From positions 1 through 25,979 of IMG/VR virus record IMGVR_UViG_3300005086_000086: DNA of 25,979 nt, one strand, 5' to 3'. The position numbers and the translations under genes are program-made. Origin of the DNA: a virus. Shown here one piece after another: positions 1,076 through 20,646 of this stretch. The notes beneath the pieces are model-generated. The model searched no databases. It saw nothing but the letters and a program-made list of their open reading frames with translations, and was not told where the DNA came from. Each line of letters begins with the position of its first letter. Position 1 is the stretch's first letter.

Positions 1076-1862
1076 GCCGCAAAGTGTTGTTGTTGTGACC
1101 GGCGGCTTCGATCCTGTTACGCCTGCCCATATATCTTTATTTCAAGAAGCTGCAAAACTTGGCGACATGTTAGTTGTATACGCAAACAGCGACGAGTGGC
1201 TTCGTCGCAAAAAACGAAAAGCATTTATGCCTGGTGAAGATCGTTGTAATATTTTATCGGCTATTGGGTGTGTTGACGAAGTTGTGTTAATGGAAAGTGA
1301 CGACGATACTGACGACACGTCTGTCGCCGCCATCAAAGATGCATTGACACGACATAAAGACAGCAAGATAATATTTGCAAACGGTGGCGACCGAACAAAA
1401 AGCACCACGCCCGAACAAAAGCATTTCCTAGGTGTAGACAAAGTAGAGTTTGTATTTGGTGTAGGAGGGGCAGAAAAAACACATGCAAGCAGCGTGTATT
1501 TAAAAAACTGGACACAAGATTTGACAACTCGCCGCTGGGGGCATTATAATGTGTTGTATTATACACCAACATGCAAGGTAAAAGAGTTGGTGTTGAGTCC
1601 AGGCAGATTCATAAGCTTGCAAAAGCACTATCATAGAAAAGAATATTGGGTCATTGTCTCTGGGACAGCAGAAGTTGTCCTTAATGATACTACAAGCATA
1701 AAAATGCCCGGCGATATGGTGCGTGTCGATATTGAAGAAAAGCACAAAATAACAAACATTGGGCAAGACGAATTAAAGATAATTGAAGTACAACTAGGAA
1801 GTTATCTTGAAGAAGACGACATTGTGAGATATGAAAAAATTGACGAAGAAAGCGAAAAATAA
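1041..1862 (+). CDS. Nucleotidyltransferase-cupin fusion protein
   Basis: Residues 17-155 form a cytidylyltransferase-type domain. It has GGFDPVTPAH at 21-30, where TPAH stands for the HxGH nucleotide-binding motif, and an ASSVYL segment near 149-154 in place of the usual closing (S/T)SS motif. Residues 165-267 form a cupin like the C-terminal domain of type II mannose-6-phosphate isomerases: PGRFISLQKHYHRKEYW at 187-203, with metal ligands likely H196, H198 and H235, and an EVQLGSYLEEDD ending. Such domains activate or isomerise sugars for glycan synthesis, so a role in altering surface sugars or nucleotide sugars is plausible. The first domain varies from the standard HxGH, so activity is uncertain. 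ATG at 1041 lacks a clear ribosome binding site; translation is probably coupled to the overlapping upstream gene. Confidence 0.85.
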   Translation: MMIKKLKSCSNKPQSVVVVTGGFDPVTPAHISLFQEAAKLGDMLVVYANSDEWLRRKKRKAFMPGEDRCNILSAIGCVDEVVLMESDDDTDDTSVAAIKDALTRHKDSKIIFANGGDRTKSTTPEQKHFLGVDKVEFVFGVGGAEKTHASSVYLKNWTQDLTTRRWGHYNVLYYTPTCKVKELVLSPGRFISLQKHYHRKEYWVIVSGTAEVVLNDTTSIKMPGDMVRVDIEEKHKITNIGQDELKIIEVQLGSYLEEDDIVRYEKIDEESEK

Positions 1863-2526
1863 GTGCAAGTTTTGTAACAAATCGTTTACACAAGAAAAAA
1901 CTCTTGCAACACATTTATGCCCAAAGAAAAAGCGGTATAATGATAAAGACACTAAGTCGTCGCGGCTTGGGTTTTTGTTCTATCAGAAGTTTTATAAGTT
2001 AACAACACGAGCTAAAAAACCAAAAACATTCGAAGACTTTATAAACAGTCAATTATATTTGTCGTTTATTAAGTTTGGCCGGTATGCTGAAAGTCAACGC
2101 ATAATTAATCCAGAAGCATTCTTAGAGTATTTAGTGAAAAACGGAATACCTATGAAAAAATGGACCGATATTGACGTATACTATGACTATTTGCATGAAT
2201 TGATGAAAAAAGAACCGGTTGAAAAAGCAATTGAACGTTCTCTTGTTACTATGAGTAAATGGGCCGAAAAGAACGGCGAATCGTTTAGTGACTTTTTTAG
2301 AAAAGTTAATATAAATGAAGCAACATATATTATCACATCTGGAAGAATTAGTCCGTGGGTTTTGTACTTAGCAGATTCTGCAGAAGAACTGTTTTCAAAG
2401 CTAACTGAAGAACAAGGGAGAATGATTGCAAAAATAATTGATCCAGACATCTGGGCAGTGCGTTTTAAGATTAGAAAAAAAGATGTTGAATTTGTGCAAT
2501 CTATACTAAAGGAAGCTAACCTATGA
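1831..2526 (+). CDS. Zinc-finger-bearing conserved phage protein
   Basis: The N-terminus holds a single C2HC-type zinc finger, CKFCNKSFTQEKTLATHLC, at about residues 12-30: CxxC, an aromatic residue, then H-x-C, followed by a basic KKKR patch. The remaining 200 residues are helical and charged, with the patterns FIKFGRYAESQRI, FFRKVN and SGRISPWVLY. I recognise the layout from marine T4-like phage genomes, where it is unassigned. The finger suggests binding to DNA, RNA or a protein partner. The gene starts 32 bases inside the upstream gene and its stop overlaps the next start in an ATGA arrangement, so translation is coupled on both sides. T4-like phages use small zinc proteins in late transcription and recombination, but no specific role can be read here. 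Confidence 0.85.
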   Translation: MKKLTKKAKNKCKFCNKSFTQEKTLATHLCPKKKRYNDKDTKSSRLGFLFYQKFYKLTTRAKKPKTFEDFINSQLYLSFIKFGRYAESQRIINPEAFLEYLVKNGIPMKKWTDIDVYYDYLHELMKKEPVEKAIERSLVTMSKWAEKNGESFSDFFRKVNINEATYIITSGRISPWVLYLADSAEELFSKLTEEQGRMIAKIIDPDIWAVRFKIRKKDVEFVQSILKEANL

Positions 2527-3092
2527 CAGATCGAGCAGATATCGACATTGACGTATATGACCGAGACAAAGCACTGTCTATTGTAAAACATCACCTCGCC
2601 ATGATGGACAAAAATGGTGAAAAAGTTAAGCACAATACGGGTGTGTATTTTCAAGACATTCCGTTTGACCCATTTACTAATATTTCGACCATAGAGTATA
2701 AAGAAGCAGATGAATTAGGGTATTTTAAAATAGACATACTCAATGTTCATCTTTATAAAGACGTTAAAGATGAAGAACACTTGTTGCGGCTGATAAACAC
2801 AGAACCAAAATGGGAACTATTTGAAGATGAAGAAGTAGTTAAGCAGCTATTTCATATTGGTAATTATTTTAGCGTATGTAAAAAGTTTAAACCACGTAGT
2901 ATAGAAGATCTTGCAATAATATTAGCATTAATAAGACCAAGCAAAAAGCACTTACAAGAATGCGATAAAGAAACAATTTTAAAAGAGATTTGGAAAAAGC
3001 CCGAAGATGGCAGTTATTATTTTAAAAAATCGCATTCTATTGCGTATGCAGTAGCAATTGTAGTACAGCTAAATTTGCTGTGCGGTGTTTAA
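2523..3092 (+). CDS. Miniature DnaE-like protein (Pol III alpha palm motifs, 189 aa)
   Basis: This short protein carries motifs of bacterial DNA polymerase III alpha in the right order. RADIDIDVYDR at residues 4-14 corresponds to the PDFDVDF active-site motif; D6 and D8 match E. coli D401 and D403. HNTGVYFQDIP at 37-47 matches the HacGVVIs region. LGYFKIDILNV at 65-75 matches the KFDFLGL motif, with D71 for D555. LFHIG, DLAIILALIRP and YYFKKSHSIAYA (165-176) match later conserved blocks. Family members exceed 1000 residues, so PHP, most finger, thumb, tail and clamp-binding regions are absent. It starts within the upstream stop (ATGA). A full polymerase is unlikely. It may be a domesticated regulatory, structural or decoy version. 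The homology is by eye but rests on several blocks. Confidence 0.85.
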   Translation: MTDRADIDIDVYDRDKALSIVKHHLAMMDKNGEKVKHNTGVYFQDIPFDPFTNISTIEYKEADELGYFKIDILNVHLYKDVKDEEHLLRLINTEPKWELFEDEEVVKQLFHIGNYFSVCKKFKPRSIEDLAIILALIRPSKKHLQECDKETILKEIWKKPEDGSYYFKKSHSIAYAVAIVVQLNLLCGV

Positions 3093-3481
3093 TTTTTAAT
3101 TATAAGTTTTATTTGTCTTCTTTTAATTCGCTTAGTTAATAAATTATTTAGCGATGTAACTGGGCCAAATAGTATTTCTGTTTCTTTAAGCTTAAATGTT
3201 TGTAAGCATTCGCGGAACTGTGACATAGCTCCTTGCATAAAAATGTTTATCGGAAGTAATCGATTAGACTCATTCCACCACGACTCGCCGCATTCTAAAA
3301 ATAATCGTTTTTGTTCAGCAGTTGGTATCTTTTCATAGTTATAAAAGCTGATCATTTTGTCGTTGGTGTTCTGCACAATACCAATAAGTTCTTTGCCTTG
3401 CCAAGACATGCAAGTTAAGAATGGATATGCCCGCTGAATTAATTCTTTATCTTTGCTTGTTATTGTTATTTTGTTGCTCAT
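3089..3481 (-). CDS. Conserved phage protein on the minus strand (130 aa)
   Basis: This is the only convincing gene on the minus strand. It converges with the preceding gene, and their 3' ends overlap by four bases. Its ATG is preceded on its own strand by AGGTA at nine bases. The protein contains YPFLTCMSWQGKELIGIVQN, a SWWNESNR block, PINIF, and a C-terminal FGPVTSLNNLLTKRIKRRQI. From memory this order (RAYPFL, GIVQN, WWxESNR, PINIF, GPVTSL, KRR) marks a family conserved across marine T4-like phages, with no known function. The composition and the conserved tryptophan pair argue against a shadow reading frame. The promoter would lie in 3482-3540, where I see only weak -10-like TAGATT preceded by TGC. 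Confidence 0.8.
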   Translation of the reverse strand: MSNKITITSKDKELIQRAYPFLTCMSWQGKELIGIVQNTNDKMISFYNYEKIPTAEQKRLFLECGESWWNESNRLLPINIFMQGAMSQFRECLQTFKLKETEILFGPVTSLNNLLTKRIKRRQIKLIIKN

Positions 3482-4490: not shown

Positions 4491-5543
4491 TTGGACCAAT
4501 TACTTGCCACATTATACCAAGAAATTTTGTTGTGTCTTGGCCCGCTAAAAAAGACACCATCTGGCTGGCACAAGCAAAATTGCAAGCTATGTCATTTGAA
4601 AGGACATAATCCCGACAAACGACGACGGTTTGGCATATTATACGAGCCAGGGCAGTCTATTGGTGTTCATTGCTTCAATTGTGGATTTTCGTCTAGGGTA
4701 GAAGTTGGCAAAACAATGCCCAAATCATTTGGATGGTTCTTACGTGCAATCGGAATGCCAGAATATAATGTTAAGCGTTTTATATTTGAACTGTATAAGC
4801 AAAAAGTTAGTCCTGGCGACAAGCCTAAAATTGTATTAAAAAAGAATATTGCAGATATGTGGGCAGAAACTAGTCTTCCGCCTGGCGCTAAAACAATTCG
4901 CCGCCACGTAGAAGAAGGGTGTACTGACCCGCACCTTTTAAAAGCAATTACATATTTAGAAGAGCGGCGGCTTTTATATCCTGATGATATTTACTGGTGT
5001 TCGACTAAAGAAAAGTTGTTGTATAAGTATGTGGTGTTGCCATTTTATTATCAAGGAAAGGTTGTTGGATACACTAAAAGAATAGTTGGCAACCCACCAA
5101 GCAAAGAAATACCAAAGTACATACACGAAAAGCCGCTGCATTATATTTACAACTTAGATAAACAAAAAAGCAGTTCGCGTAATTATGTAATTGTTGCCGA
5201 AGGGGTGCTTGATGCTTTTCTTGTTGATGGCATTTCGCCACTAACCAATACTATTAGCCCTGAGCAAGCAAATTTAATAAATAGTCTAAACAAGCAAGTT
5301 ATTGTTGTGCCAGATCACGACAAAGCCGGACAAGTTATGATTGATATTGCTTTACAAAATAACTGGGCAGTATCATTCCCGCCTTGGAGCAAAGATATTA
5401 AAGATGTCGCAGATGCGTCAAAAAAATACGGAAGAATTTTAACTGTCCAGAGTATCCTTGAGCATGTAGAAACAAGCCAATTTGCTATTAAATTAAAAAG
5501 AAAAATGATGACGACAATTAACAAGGAGAGTTATGGAAACTAG
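4491..5543 (+). CDS. gp61: DNA primase (T4 gp61-like)
   Basis: It makes RNA primers for lagging-strand synthesis at the phage fork. The N-terminus has a zinc-binding domain with CKLC at 31-34 and CFNC at 61-64. The toprim catalytic domain follows, with VIVAEGVLDAF at 233-243 (E237 as the general acid) and VVPDHDKAG at 272-280 (D275 and D277 as metal ligands), then KDIKD at 301-305. The length of 350 residues fits T4 gp61. The start is TTG at 4491, about eight bases after AAGGAA and behind the strong promoter; no ATG fits the zinc domain. The TTG may hold expression below that of the helicase, whose start overlaps the primase end by 11 bases. The adjacent helicase is its natural partner in the primosome. 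Confidence 0.93.
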   Translation: MDQLLATLYQEILLCLGPLKKTPSGWHKQNCKLCHLKGHNPDKRRRFGILYEPGQSIGVHCFNCGFSSRVEVGKTMPKSFGWFLRAIGMPEYNVKRFIFELYKQKVSPGDKPKIVLKKNIADMWAETSLPPGAKTIRRHVEEGCTDPHLLKAITYLEERRLLYPDDIYWCSTKEKLLYKYVVLPFYYQGKVVGYTKRIVGNPPSKEIPKYIHEKPLHYIYNLDKQKSSSRNYVIVAEGVLDAFLVDGISPLTNTISPEQANLINSLNKQVIVVPDHDKAGQVMIDIALQNNWAVSFPPWSKDIKDVADASKKYGRILTVQSILEHVETSQFAIKLKRKMMTTINKESYGN

Positions 5544-6933
5544 TATTGCCGAATATACAAAAGAAGTAGAAGACTTATTCATTTCGATGATGCTATGTGA
5601 CCCAGAGTTGTATGTTCGGTGTAAGGGCATTCTCAAGTCGACGTATTTTGAAGATAGACAAAATGCAAAAACTGTCGATTTCATGAATGAACATTATATG
5701 AAGTTTTCTGATTTGCCAACATATGAGCAGATCAAAGCAGTTGTAGGCAAAGAAGTTGATAGATTGTCGGGAATGCACGAAAGCCACAAAGATTGGTTTT
5801 TGGCAGAATTTGAACAGTTTGCACGACATAAGTCGTTAGAGAGAGAAATTTTAAATTCGGCGCCTTTGCTAGAACAAAAGCGTTACGGCGAAGTTGAAGA
5901 CAGGATCAAAAAAGCAGTACAAGTAGGGTTAGTAAAAGACTTAGGTACAGATTATTTCGAAAATCCAGCTGAACGCCTCGAAAACTTGCGAGACAACGAC
6001 GAAATGTTTTCAACTGGCTGGCGCGACATCGATAAAAAACTGTATGGCGGATTTACTCGCGGCGCATTAAATATTTTTGCAGGGCAATCTGGCGCTGGTA
6101 AAAGTATATTTTTGCAAAATTTAGCACTTAATTGGGTAGAGCAAGGACTTAATGTAGTTTACCTTTCGTTGGAATTAAGTGAAAAATTGTGTTCTATGCG
6201 ATTCGACTCAATGATTTCAAATTATTCAACAAACGAGTTATTAAAAAACGTCGACGATGTAAGTTTGCGTGTTGCTGCCTTTCATAGAGCGCATAAAGGC
6301 CGCTTGTGTATTAAGCAAATGCCAAACGGGTGTACAGCAAATGATGTGTTGGCGTACATAAAAGAATATGAAATACAAAAAAATATTAAAGTAGACGCAG
6401 TTTTGCTAGACTATTTAGACTTGTGTATGCCGATGAGTGTGCGTGTCAATCCGTCAGACATGTTCATTAAAGACAAATATGTTTCAGAAGAACTTCGTAA
6501 CTTAGCAACACAATTAGATGTTTTATTCTGCACTGCCTCACAGTTAAACCGTGCTTCACACGAAGAAATAGAATTCGACCACCAGCATATTTCGGGCGGT
6601 ATATCTAAAATCAACACTGCTGACAATGTAATTGGTATATTTGTAACCCCTGCAATGAAAGAAAGCGGTCGTTACCAAGTACAGTTTATGAAAACTCGTT
6701 CAAGTAGCGGCGTTGGCTCTAAAGTTGATCTAAAATTTGATGTAAAAACATTGCGCATTTCTGATTTAGAAGAAGGGGAAGAATCTTCAATGTCTAAAAC
6801 AACATCTAATATCATTAATAACTTAAAGACTGGGTCTGTTATTAAAGAACCTGCCAAAAGTAGTCCTACCAAAGGCAACGATGTCCTTGAAAAGAGCGCA
6901 AAATTGCGCGACATCTTGAAGAAAGGAAAATAA
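5533..6933 (+). CDS. gp41: Replicative DNA helicase (T4 gp41 / DnaB family)
   Basis: A hexameric 5'-3' helicase that unwinds the fork and loads the primase. The N-terminal domain (1-150) is helical and less conserved. The RecA-like motor follows: Walker A GQSGAGKS at 184-191, VVYLSLELSE at 208-217 carrying the catalytic glutamate, Walker B LLDYLD at 291-296, and FCTASQLNR at 332-340 with the sensor glutamine. The C-terminus is a polar linker ending in lysines. Its 466 residues match T4 gp41 (about 475). ATG at 5533 has AAGGAG eight bases upstream within the primase gene, so the two are translationally linked. T4 gp41 normally needs the gp59 loader, which is not in this window. Confidence 0.95.
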   Translation: METSIAEYTKEVEDLFISMMLCDPELYVRCKGILKSTYFEDRQNAKTVDFMNEHYMKFSDLPTYEQIKAVVGKEVDRLSGMHESHKDWFLAEFEQFARHKSLEREILNSAPLLEQKRYGEVEDRIKKAVQVGLVKDLGTDYFENPAERLENLRDNDEMFSTGWRDIDKKLYGGFTRGALNIFAGQSGAGKSIFLQNLALNWVEQGLNVVYLSLELSEKLCSMRFDSMISNYSTNELLKNVDDVSLRVAAFHRAHKGRLCIKQMPNGCTANDVLAYIKEYEIQKNIKVDAVLLDYLDLCMPMSVRVNPSDMFIKDKYVSEELRNLATQLDVLFCTASQLNRASHEEIEFDHQHISGGISKINTADNVIGIFVTPAMKESGRYQVQFMKTRSSSGVGSKVDLKFDVKTLRISDLEEGEESSMSKTTSNIINNLKTGSVIKEPAKSSPTKGNDVLEKSAKLRDILKKGK

Positions 6934-7228: not shown

Positions 7229-8704
7229 ATGAACTTAAAAATGTTGTCAAATCCTATGTTTGAAGGAATATCGCACATCGAAGATCTGGCAGTGGATCAG
7301 TTTATTGATGCACTAAAGAATTTCGAACACTACGAAATTTCCGAAAAAGTTGATGGGTCTAATCTTCAGTTTGGATATGACGAAAACGGGTTTTATACAA
7401 GCCGCGAAACAAAAAACGGAACAGAAAGAATGCGTAGTGTTGACGAGTATCCCATACAGTTTAACACAACATTTCAAAGGTCTGCCCATGCAGCACTTGA
7501 AAAAGTGTTCCCCATAATTAAAAAGGCTGGTGCTATTAAGAAAGGCGATAGTGTTGATGTTGAAGTTCTTTTTGGGAAATTGCCCAATGTTGTGCCTTAC
7601 GATAGTTCAGTTAATCGGATTATATTTTTGCGCCCAGCGAATGGCACCCCCAACATCGAAGAAATGAAAAAAGTTTTGCATAACAAGACAGTGTCTGTTA
7701 CAATAGACGCACCGTTTACTCTTGACGGAAAAACAATAAATACGCAACCAGAAACACACGTTTGGGCATTTGCAAAAACGCCAACAACTGATGCAAAAAG
7801 TATAACTAATACAGACTTGTGGGCGACTGTTAAGAATAAGTTAGACGAATTAGAAAACTTTTTGTTGCGGCCGTCGGGGATATATAACTTTAGTAATGCG
7901 GAAATTTTGAGTATTCCGCTAAACAAGCGACCAGAATCTGTTGCACAACAGGATTGGAAATCGGTAAAAGAAATAATTAAAAAGAAAAGACAAGAAATTA
8001 ATAACAAAATATATACTGTTGATAAAGAAGCAGGGCATGTCTCTGGTCTCAAACATGAGATTAAAGAATTGTTGTTAGACCAGCTAGTAAGAAAGATAAA
8101 ATCTTCGTTCGGCCCAGAAATAACAGATGGCGGATGGATTGAAGGAGTTGTGTTTAGAAACAAAGAAAACAATAGCATGTTTAAAGTTGTTGACAAAGAT
8201 ATGTTTACCGCTGTCAAAAATTTTGCATGGAAAGTTAGGGACGACCTCACAAGCAAGCCAAAAAGCTTAAAAGCGGTGAATTCGTTTAACGGCAAATTAT
8301 TAGTCGGGTTAGCAACTTCGCTTGGTCATCCTGAACTCGGCACAATGCAAGCAAAGCGACATTTAAGAAAGCTAGGAAAAACACCACAAGAAATTATAGA
8401 CACAATTTCAAAAAATGTAAAATTTGAAAGTGTCAAACAGTATTGGATTAAATTTATTGAAAAAAAGCAAGAAGAATTTGATGACTTACTAGAAACATAT
8501 AAAAACGAGTATAAAGACTATCGAGTTACAATAAAAGACAGAGAGTTTACATACGATGACGAGATTCATAAGCGAACATTGCAATCGTTTGCTGTGATGA
8601 AAAAAACACTTGACGAAATGGAAAGAAAAGCTCGTCTAGCTAAGTCAACAGCCGACCTAGTAATGATACTTGTTGGTCGGCAACTAAGTGAGCTAGGAGG
8701 CTAA
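7229..8704 (+). CDS. RNA/DNA ligase-like nucleotidyltransferase
   Basis: The protein belongs to the covalent nucleotidyltransferase (ligase) superfamily. Motif I EKVDGSNLQFG at 39-49 carries the lysine (K40) that would be adenylated. TSRE at 57-60 fits motif Ia. VDVEVLFGKLPN at 109-120 fits motif III. WIEGVVFR at 303-310 fits motif IV. FKVVDKDMF at 318-326 fits motif V. The N-terminal MFEGISHIEDL resembles RNA ligases of large phages. The C-terminal third (about 340-491) is helical and lysine-rich and could bind nucleic acid. It sits in a late operon with a polymerase-beta-type nucleotidyltransferase at 9502, which suggests RNA end repair. Its length of 491 residues exceeds T4 Rnl1 or Rnl2. 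It could act on RNA, DNA or nicked hybrids; the sequence does not say which. Confidence 0.85.
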   Translation: MNLKMLSNPMFEGISHIEDLAVDQFIDALKNFEHYEISEKVDGSNLQFGYDENGFYTSRETKNGTERMRSVDEYPIQFNTTFQRSAHAALEKVFPIIKKAGAIKKGDSVDVEVLFGKLPNVVPYDSSVNRIIFLRPANGTPNIEEMKKVLHNKTVSVTIDAPFTLDGKTINTQPETHVWAFAKTPTTDAKSITNTDLWATVKNKLDELENFLLRPSGIYNFSNAEILSIPLNKRPESVAQQDWKSVKEIIKKKRQEINNKIYTVDKEAGHVSGLKHEIKELLLDQLVRKIKSSFGPEITDGGWIEGVVFRNKENNSMFKVVDKDMFTAVKNFAWKVRDDLTSKPKSLKAVNSFNGKLLVGLATSLGHPELGTMQAKRHLRKLGKTPQEIIDTISKNVKFESVKQYWIKFIEKKQEEFDDLLETYKNEYKDYRVTIKDREFTYDDEIHKRTLQSFAVMKKTLDEMERKARLAKSTADLVMILVGRQLSELGG

Positions 8705-8709
8705 TTATT

Positions 8710-9090
8710 ATGGCTAACATTATTAAAATAACTATATTATCGATCGCATTTTTGTTTTTGTGGGCGTGTGACGATCAATCTAATTTAACAAAAGACTTTG
8801 ATAGAGCAAACAAGCCAATTGTGTTGCGTGTGTTTGTTCACAAAAATGAAAAAGAAGTTACAGAAGCATACAAAAAACATCTTGGACCAGAACTTAAAAA
8901 TGACAAGTATGCAAATGCTTTGCGAGAAGGCTGGGCAACATGGAGCCCTGCAAGTGTCCAAGAAAACCCAATATGCGATGTGCATGTTGTAGAGCCACGT
9001 TCTGTAAAAGATAAAAGAGTTATAGAAACGTGGGGACACGAGTTGGTGCACTGCATTTATGGAAAATATCACAAACCTGGGGTACGATGA
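8710..9090 (+). CDS. Predicted lipoprotein with HExxH metallopeptidase motif
   Basis: The N-terminus is a type II signal peptide: a short positive start, hydrophobic ITILSIAFLFLW, then WAC with the lipidated cysteine at residue 20. The -2 tryptophan is unusual, and D21 at +2 would favour retention at the inner membrane. Near the C-terminus, TWGHELVHCIYGKYH (107-121) contains HELVH with a further histidine at +7, so H110, E111, H114 and possibly H121 could bind zinc. It is not the exact metzincin spacing HExxHxxGxxH. The whole mature part is only about 107 residues. Late expression and membrane anchoring suggest a role in lysis or in modifying the envelope for assembly or superinfection, which is inference. 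The next gene starts in the stop (ATGA). Confidence 0.8.
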   Translation: MANIIKITILSIAFLFLWACDDQSNLTKDFDRANKPIVLRVFVHKNEKEVTEAYKKHLGPELKNDKYANALREGWATWSPASVQENPICDVHVVEPRSVKDKRVIETWGHELVHCIYGKYHKPGVR

Positions 9091-9500
9091 TGGATGACAT
9101 AAAACAAATACGCGAAAAATACGAAAGGTATAAACAAGAGCACAAGGCGATGTCTGAATTTATAGACACACCACTTACTAAAAAGATTAGTAATATTGTC
9201 TTTAATAAAGGCAATATATTTAAGCTCTTGTTTTTAAGTGCATATCCAAAAGATGCAGAAACAACTACAACGGAATTAAAAAAGGCAGGATTCGACGACG
9301 AAACAATAAAGCATATTTCACTATTATATAGAAGTGCATTTAAAGATGTTGCAAAGAACAATGAATTGCCAATAATGACAGATAAAAGTTTTTTTGCAAA
9401 CATAAAAATTGATCCAGCTGTTGAATTTAACAAAAAAGCATTTTATGACGAGTTAGAACAAGAATTTTTAAATAAATTGAAATATAGCAGGAAGATATAA
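9087..9500 (+). CDS. Hypothetical late protein (137 aa)
   Basis: I place the start at ATG 9087 because it overlaps the TGA of the lipoprotein gene in a typical ATGA junction; the frame is open upstream but that part lies inside the lipoprotein gene. The product is helical and strongly charged, starting MMDDIKQIREKYERYKQEHK. It has a hydrophobic patch NIFKLLFLSAYP at about 43-54 and ends in KLKYSRKI. There is no signal peptide or known motif. Its stop is one base before the next gene, so it is part of the same translational unit as the nucleotidyltransferase. I do not recognise it. Confidence 0.75.
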   Translation: MMDDIKQIREKYERYKQEHKAMSEFIDTPLTKKISNIVFNKGNIFKLLFLSAYPKDAETTTTELKKAGFDDETIKHISLLYRSAFKDVAKNNELPIMTDKSFFANIKIDPAVEFNKKAFYDELEQEFLNKLKYSRKI

Positions 9501-19855: not shown

Positions 19856-20066
19856 AAAGAAGGTTGAAAGTTCAAATATATCACAAATTGGATTTGAAGC
19901 CGGGCTGCTCGAAGTCACATTCAATAGTGGTAGCACATACCAATACTTTGATGTAGACGAGAAGTTGTTTGAAGATTTTTTAAACGCAGATAGCAAAGGA
20001 AAATTCTTCTATACACAAGTTCGTGGGCAATTTGATTATGAAAAGCTAGAAGATAAAAAGGAGTGA
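19848..20066 (+). CDS. KTSC-domain protein (72 aa)
   Basis: This is a single KTSC domain, named after the conserved lysine-threonine-serine-cysteine family positions. The pattern VESSNISQIGFEAGLLEVTF, then SGSTYQYFDVDEKLFEDFLN and SKGKFFYTQVRGQFDYEKL is typical: a short N-terminal strand, a YQYFDV block and an SKGKFF-RG end. Such small domains occur in phages and bacteria, sometimes fused to lysyl-tRNA-synthetase-like or nuclease proteins, and have no established role. It overlaps the previous gene by eight bases and is four bases before the next ATG, so it is translated with the cell wall hydrolase. Confidence 0.88.
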   Translation: MIKKKVESSNISQIGFEAGLLEVTFNSGSTYQYFDVDEKLFEDFLNADSKGKFFYTQVRGQFDYEKLEDKKE

Positions 20067-20070
20067 AACA

Positions 20071-20646
20071 ATGAACGAGATGTTGTGTAGTGTGTTGTTT
20101 GTTTTTAATTTGATGTGCAATAATGCAAGCATACACAAAGAACCAGCAGTATCGTTCAATAATCACAATTATCAAGAAATAAACTTTAGGTTTTCGTTGC
20201 CTGAAGGCAGCGAATCCGAACTCAAATGTTTAACAAACAACATTTATTATGAAGCAAGGGATCAGTCACGCCAAGGAAAAATTGCTGTTAGTTACGTGAC
20301 ATTAAATCGTGTTAAAGATTCGCGTTTCCCTTCAACCATTTGTGGTGTTGTTAAGCAAAAAAGAAACGGTGTTTGTCAATTTTCGTGGTATTGCCAAGGA
20401 CACGATTGGACACCTTCGTTTATAAACGACGAAAATCAATTAGTATTAAAAGAAAAGAATATGTATAAAGTGTCTTACGAAATAGCACTTTATACATATC
20501 TAGGTTACATACAGGATAATACACAAGGTGCAACACACTATTATAATCATAATATTGTGAGGCCGAAATGGGCAAAATATTATCCAGTGACGGTAGTTTA
20601 TGAAGATCACACATTTAAGAAGCGGATGATAAATAGTCCGCTATAG
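20071..20646 (+). CDS. SleB-family cell wall hydrolase (possible endolysin)
   Basis: The protein matches the SleB-type hydrolase domain, which cuts the glycan strands of peptidoglycan. CLTNNIYYEARDQ at 53-65 carries the likely catalytic glutamate E61. KIAVSYVTLNRVKDSRFP at 70-87 and CQFSWYC at 102-108 follow, and GATHYYN at 153-159 closes the domain. The N-terminus (residues 4-20, hydrophobic, cysteine-rich) could be a short signal or membrane anchor, so it may reach the periplasm without a holin. AAAAGGAG lies in front of the ATG at 20071. It lies upstream of the reductase gene. It is a good endolysin candidate, though a role in host entry or wall remodelling is possible. Confidence 0.9.
   Translation: MNEMLCSVLFVFNLMCNNASIHKEPAVSFNNHNYQEINFRFSLPEGSESELKCLTNNIYYEARDQSRQGKIAVSYVTLNRVKDSRFPSTICGVVKQKRNGVCQFSWYCQGHDWTPSFINDENQLVLKEKNMYKVSYEIALYTYLGYIQDNTQGATHYYNHNIVRPKWAKYYPVTVVYEDHTFKKRMINSPL
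20628..20635 (+). promoter_or_regulatory. Possible late promoter inside the sleB 3' end (GATAAATA)
   Basis: GATAAATA lies in the last codons of the hydrolase gene and 36 bases before the reductase ATG at 20672, within the spacing seen for other late boxes here. A chance match is possible because the bases also encode MINS. Confidence 0.42.

Follow-up and report, generated by a model that had tools for sequence, protein, structure and literature searches.

A minimal DNA polymerase III (Pol III) alpha divided over two proteins was described by Iyer et al. (2021; Viruses 13:63, PMC7824862) in group 2.2 jumbo phages, and a truncated alpha protein of 172 amino acids was already noted in the paper on phage CBB (PMC5259590). 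The Pol III alpha of group 3.2 phages is a single chain with an N-terminal PHP domain (PMC7824862). Experiments on the two-protein form following the report by Iyer et al. (2021) were not found in the literature, and DNA polymerase is not mentioned in a 2026 review of jumbo phages. The window considered here, i.e., the whole stretch of DNA which was analysed, is a fragment of about 26 kb (25,979 bases) from an uncultured phage, and it contains an open reading frame (ORF) with similarity to family C polymerases.

Translation of positions 2523–3092 (plus strand) yielded 189 amino acids and a stop codon. It confirmed what a sequence-only reading of this DNA had pointed out, namely motifs of Pol III alpha in their usual order: PDxDID (D6, D8), KHxxG (H37), KxD (K69, D71), LAxxLAxIRP and FKKSHxxAYA, the last two being present as LAIILALIRP and FKKSHSIAYA in what would be truncated fingers. 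The DIDID motif (2538–2552, plus strand; D6, D8, D10) corresponds to PDFDVD of E. coli DnaE (D401, D403, D405), with the split point immediately upstream of DIDID; K69-I-D71 (2727–2735, plus strand) was paired by hhalign with K553-F-D555. In this register, H37 is equivalent to H511 and R138 to R639, and the three catalytic aspartates of the sequence-only reading, D6, D8 and D71, correspond to D401, D403 and D555. The protein has about one sixth of the length of E. coli DnaE (189 of 1160 residues), as that reading had also stated. The shortening is reflected in the distances between motifs, since D8 and H37 are separated by 29 residues compared to about 107 in E. coli, and RP and FKKSH by 28 compared to about 115.

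The proposed membership in the DnaE family was borne out by profile searches. The ORF matched phrog_11778, annotated as "DNA polymerase" (E = 2.1e-70), and phrog_405, a C-family polymerase of 1190 positions (E = 1.4e-7), where it maps to positions 441–452, 578–686 and 776–809. A match to the Pfam model DNA_pol3_finger (E = 7e-4) was under the curated cut-off of that model. When a family of 20 relatives was compared by hhalign with E. coli DnaE, residues 509–642 were aligned (E = 0.0037), with pairing of KHNTGV and KHAGGVV, FKIDILN and KFDFLGL, and IRPSK and FRPGP. A phmmer search of solved structures with the single sequence gave chance matches only; thus, the ORF is connected to Pol III by profiles and by the fold.

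For the latter, an AlphaFold2 model was obtained from an alignment of 46 sequences from the window and IMG/VR loci, with a pLDDT of 93.2. The best matches in the PDB found by Foldseek were Pol III alpha and other C-family entries. A structural aligner placed 187 of the 189 residues on residues 968–1293 of PolC (Z 9.9, rmsd 3.6) and 185 residues on 397–778 of E. coli Pol III (Z 8.8), while the first entry outside the family reached a Z of 4.9. As modelled, the protein is the palm and fingers of Pol III/PolC, aligned over its whole length, which agrees with a protein of the DnaE type as proposed in the sequence-only reading.

The Gly-Ser nucleotide-binding motif, which in Pol III is located just upstream of PDxDID, is absent from the ORF and from the 26-kb window. 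Five related genomes were searched with Pol III families, and the four larger genomes were found to contain another small ORF, which matches Pol III just before PDxDID. In phage Paride the C-terminus of this protein, GRGSSVASYVLFLIGVHKVDSLKYNLDIKEFLK, is the Gly-Ser motif of DnaE, and the protein ends at the point where the ORF of the window begins (RADIDID). It was aligned by hhalign with residues 323–393 of E. coli DnaE (E = 5.9e-6) and maps to positions 357–440 of phrog_405. Because the Gly-Ser motif is carried by a separate gene in the relatives, the ORF of the window would represent half of a family C polymerase (the C half) and not one alone, and its description as a stand-alone minimal enzyme has to give way to that of one part of a catalytic core which is divided between two proteins. 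The model of the N half was poor (pLDDT 57.7) and gave no usable fold match, which leaves its fold putative. Poor folding of the N half by itself is compatible with a requirement for a partner, and proves nothing.

The two halves occur together with great regularity. When the 60 best phage records were listed for either half, the two lists had 59 records in common. The one record with only the C half is 109 kb long, compared to about 350 kb for the other records of its group. The one with only the N half, among the 60 best for that half, is not among the 60 matches listed for the C half. No match to the N half was found in a contig of 221 kb (L148), which may be a fragment. The N half is present in relatives with larger records; the window, a 26-kb fragment, lacks it, and for this phage the presence of the pair is deduced from its relatives. 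A fused single-chain version was not found among 199 N- or C-half ORFs of the fetched loci, none of which exceeded 260 amino acids; this sample was biased towards the closest 80 loci per scan, and distant fused forms could escape it. In a separate observation, two partner proteins (P0003 and L032:1510–2028) matched phrog_13169 and phrog_7513, which are phage families of about 460 amino acids, with the Gly-Ser region of the partner matching near their C-terminal end. These matches hint that additional phages have split Pol III genes as well.

From the profiles, the model and the co-occurrence of the halves, together with the conservation and the gene neighbourhood described below, we consider it probable that T4-like, jumbo-type phages have a minimal family C (Pol III alpha) polymerase core composed of two subunits, and that the ORF of the window encodes the C-terminal one, with the halves presumed to pair.

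Relatives of the C half were numerous. With tblastn against phage records, 63 records were found at a query coverage of at least 80%, all with less than 60% identity; they included PA5oct-type Pseudomonas phages, Agrobacterium phage Atu_ph07, Sinorhizobium phage Phosso, Salicola phage SCTP-2, RaK2, 121Q, CBB, GAP32 and others. Homologues of both halves were found in RaK2, PA5oct, Atu_ph07 and 121Q. Profile-guided scans of IMG/VR yielded at least 566 matching stretches for the C half and at least 538 for the N half, and the same split point was present across hundreds of viral contigs. An alignment of 90 C-half sequences showed no variation at D6, D8, D10, H37, G40, K69, D71, R138, P139, K141, K168 and H171; the catalytic aspartates are thus conserved in other phages, a point which the sequence-only reading had wished to see checked. 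In 58 N-half sequences (Paride numbering) the GRGS residues, including R138, G139 and S140, were invariant, followed by S144 and Y145. Median dN/dS, determined for unsaturated pairs, was 0.17 for each half; both halves are under purifying selection.

The surroundings of the C half are conserved as well. Its upstream neighbour (1831–2526, plus strand; phrog_11058, E = 1e-64) encodes a protein with a zinc-finger-like CxxC at the N-terminus, and its stop codon overlaps the start of the C half. This gene was a neighbour in 98 of 108 loci and, where the order was checked, was always upstream and on the same strand; its product is a possible accessory protein. On the other side, a gene of phrog_11637 (3089–3481, minus strand; E = 1e-31) is convergent with the C half; it was found in 103 of the 108 loci, and in 101 of these it was likewise antisense to the C half. 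Primase and helicase genes follow, the former gp61-like (4491–5543, plus strand; phrog_47 DNA primase, E = 1.6e-22), the latter a gp41-like gene for a DnaB-like replicative helicase (5533–6933, plus strand; PF03796, E = 2.7e-18; phrog_19, E = 2.1e-69). The N half is located in relatives a few genes from that of the clamp loader gp44. Wherever zinc-finger protein, half-polymerase and primase were all present (77 of 77 loci), they were arranged in this order on one strand. Decay of a dnaE gene acquired from a host, in line with the word relic in the sequence-only reading, could account for the large deletions relative to DnaE; we regard it as barely credible and have rejected it, in view of the low dN/dS, the invariant catalytic residues, the occurrence in hundreds of viral contigs with an identical split point, and the unchanged gene order.

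Two other groups of genes in the window may be mentioned. Positions 1041–1862, inside the conserved cluster, encode a nucleotidyltransferase (CTP_transf_like) fused to a cupin of the mannose-6-phosphate-isomerase type; this fusion was found in 5 of the 108 related loci and thus looks like a lineage-specific insertion. Between 20672 and 25587, genes for a B12-type ribonucleotide reductase, thymidylate synthase, GTP cyclohydrolase I, a cytidylyltransferase and 6-pyruvoyl-tetrahydropterin synthase are present, which are perhaps part of a route to 7-deazaguanine (queuosine-like) or another base modification.

A family B polymerase would be expected in T4-like phages, and the sequence-only reading had remarked on a family C fragment in this setting. 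Both types do occur together in relatives: a family B polymerase was found in RaK2, Paride, Atu_ph07, Slicko01 and the IMG/VR records G001, G003 and G004, with the motifs DxxSLYP and DTDS intact in RaK2, Paride, Atu_ph07 and G001. A family A polymerase was not found in five relatives searched, two of which are IMG/VR contigs and maybe fragments. The split Pol III alpha would therefore be an additional polymerase-like protein of the T4-like replisome, besides the family B enzyme. In Atu_ph07 (L037, L040) the family B polymerase is distributed over two frames of 578 and 418 amino acids, and in Paride (L038) it is interrupted; a split intein has been reported for MIJ3, a relative of PA5oct. Alishewanella phage Slicko01 (141 kb, L208) contains both halves of the Pol III alpha, at 8611–9126 and 19968–20576, about 11 kb apart, besides a family B polymerase in two open frames of 578 and 322 amino acids. 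The split polymerase thus exists outside the usual jumbo size, well below 200 kb.

Several of these phages also encode a DnaQ-like exonuclease. It was rejected as a constant partner, since no such gene was found in Slicko01 and the contigs G003 and G004, out of seven records which were searched; two of these three may be fragments. Phage proteins which take over host machinery exist in general, and the C half resembles host Pol III; it could then be imagined as an inert decoy or regulator, mimicking host Pol III alpha and binding subunits of the host replisome (clamp, tau or epsilon), with the DnaQ-like exonuclease as another potential target for binding. Alpha binds clamp, tau and epsilon via its C-terminal domains and PHP, and exactly these regions are missing here, whereas the catalytic aspartates and the lysine are invariant in 90 relatives. 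Loss of the parts which contact other host subunits, together with retention of the catalytic ones, makes a decoy improbable. The patchy finding of the DnaQ-like gene, with the same reservation about fragments, also speaks against it, as does the near-constant partner with its matching Gly-Ser motif; the isolated decoy of the sequence-only reading does not agree with another half encoded elsewhere in nearly every phage carrying the C half.

According to the preferred explanation, a two-subunit polymerase core, the two chains would pair and form one nucleotidyltransferase active site of the pol-beta type, in which the NTP would be held by the N half and two metals by the C half. Alongside the family B polymerase, primase, helicase and clamp loader, the paired halves might carry out primer extension, gap-filling or repair. 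Neither protein contains PHP, most of the thumb and fingers, or the clamp-binding and OB parts. With the thumb reduced to this extent, binding of DNA by the core may be weak, and low processivity is to be expected because thumb and clamp-binding parts are missing, unless a neighbour supplies a grip on DNA; the phrog_11058 protein as this supplier is speculation. The same losses (see the spacings above) would suit a two-subunit nucleotidyltransferase which has kept the fold and lost template copying, e.g., a terminal transferase, or a role in DNA binding or assembly within the T4-like replisome; pol-beta-fold enzymes include many non-templated transferases. This we consider unlikely, though less so than a decoy. 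Conservation of the finger motifs IRP and FKKSH, in which R138, P139, K168 and H171 do not vary, suggests that contacts to dNTP or template were retained. For the stronger proposal, that the halves constitute an active, obligately two-chain and nearly thumb-less family C polymerase, serving as a dedicated second polymerase in a T4-like family B replisome and extending well below jumbo size, we would put the chances for and against at about equal.

Should the halves indeed assemble into a functional polymerase, its family C core would be very small and could show the minimum which is required for Pol III chemistry. A replisome with two unrelated polymerases would, if true, bear on the origin of the bacterial and archaeal-type replication machineries.

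With DnaE and PolC, the two halves share the Gly-Ser, PDxDID, KxD, LAxxLAxIRP and FNKSH motifs, in this order across both proteins, and the topology of palm and fingers over 187 residues; they differ by being two chains, by the absence of PHP, clamp-binding, OB and C-terminal domains, and by the deletion of most of the thumb and fingers. The full-length Pol III alpha of phages (phrog_405; phage G and c-st type, group 3.2) has the family C catalytic core as well, in a single chain; in the relatives of the window the core is divided, and their genomes also encode a family B polymerase. The closest counterpart is the split Pol III alpha of group 2.2 phages (PMC7824862), which shows, as do relatives of the window, a division into an NTP-binding and a Mg/template-binding part, distant genes, and a family B polymerase in the genome. 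Since this idea has been in print since 2021, the window adds a member and supporting statistics, and not a new kind of system. New here are this member itself, from a fragment of an uncultured phage, with a C half 54–56% identical to the Atu_ph07 and PA5oct-type proteins, the near 1:1 pairing, the catalytic invariance, the fold of the C half, the purifying selection, and the presence of both halves in a phage of 141 kb.
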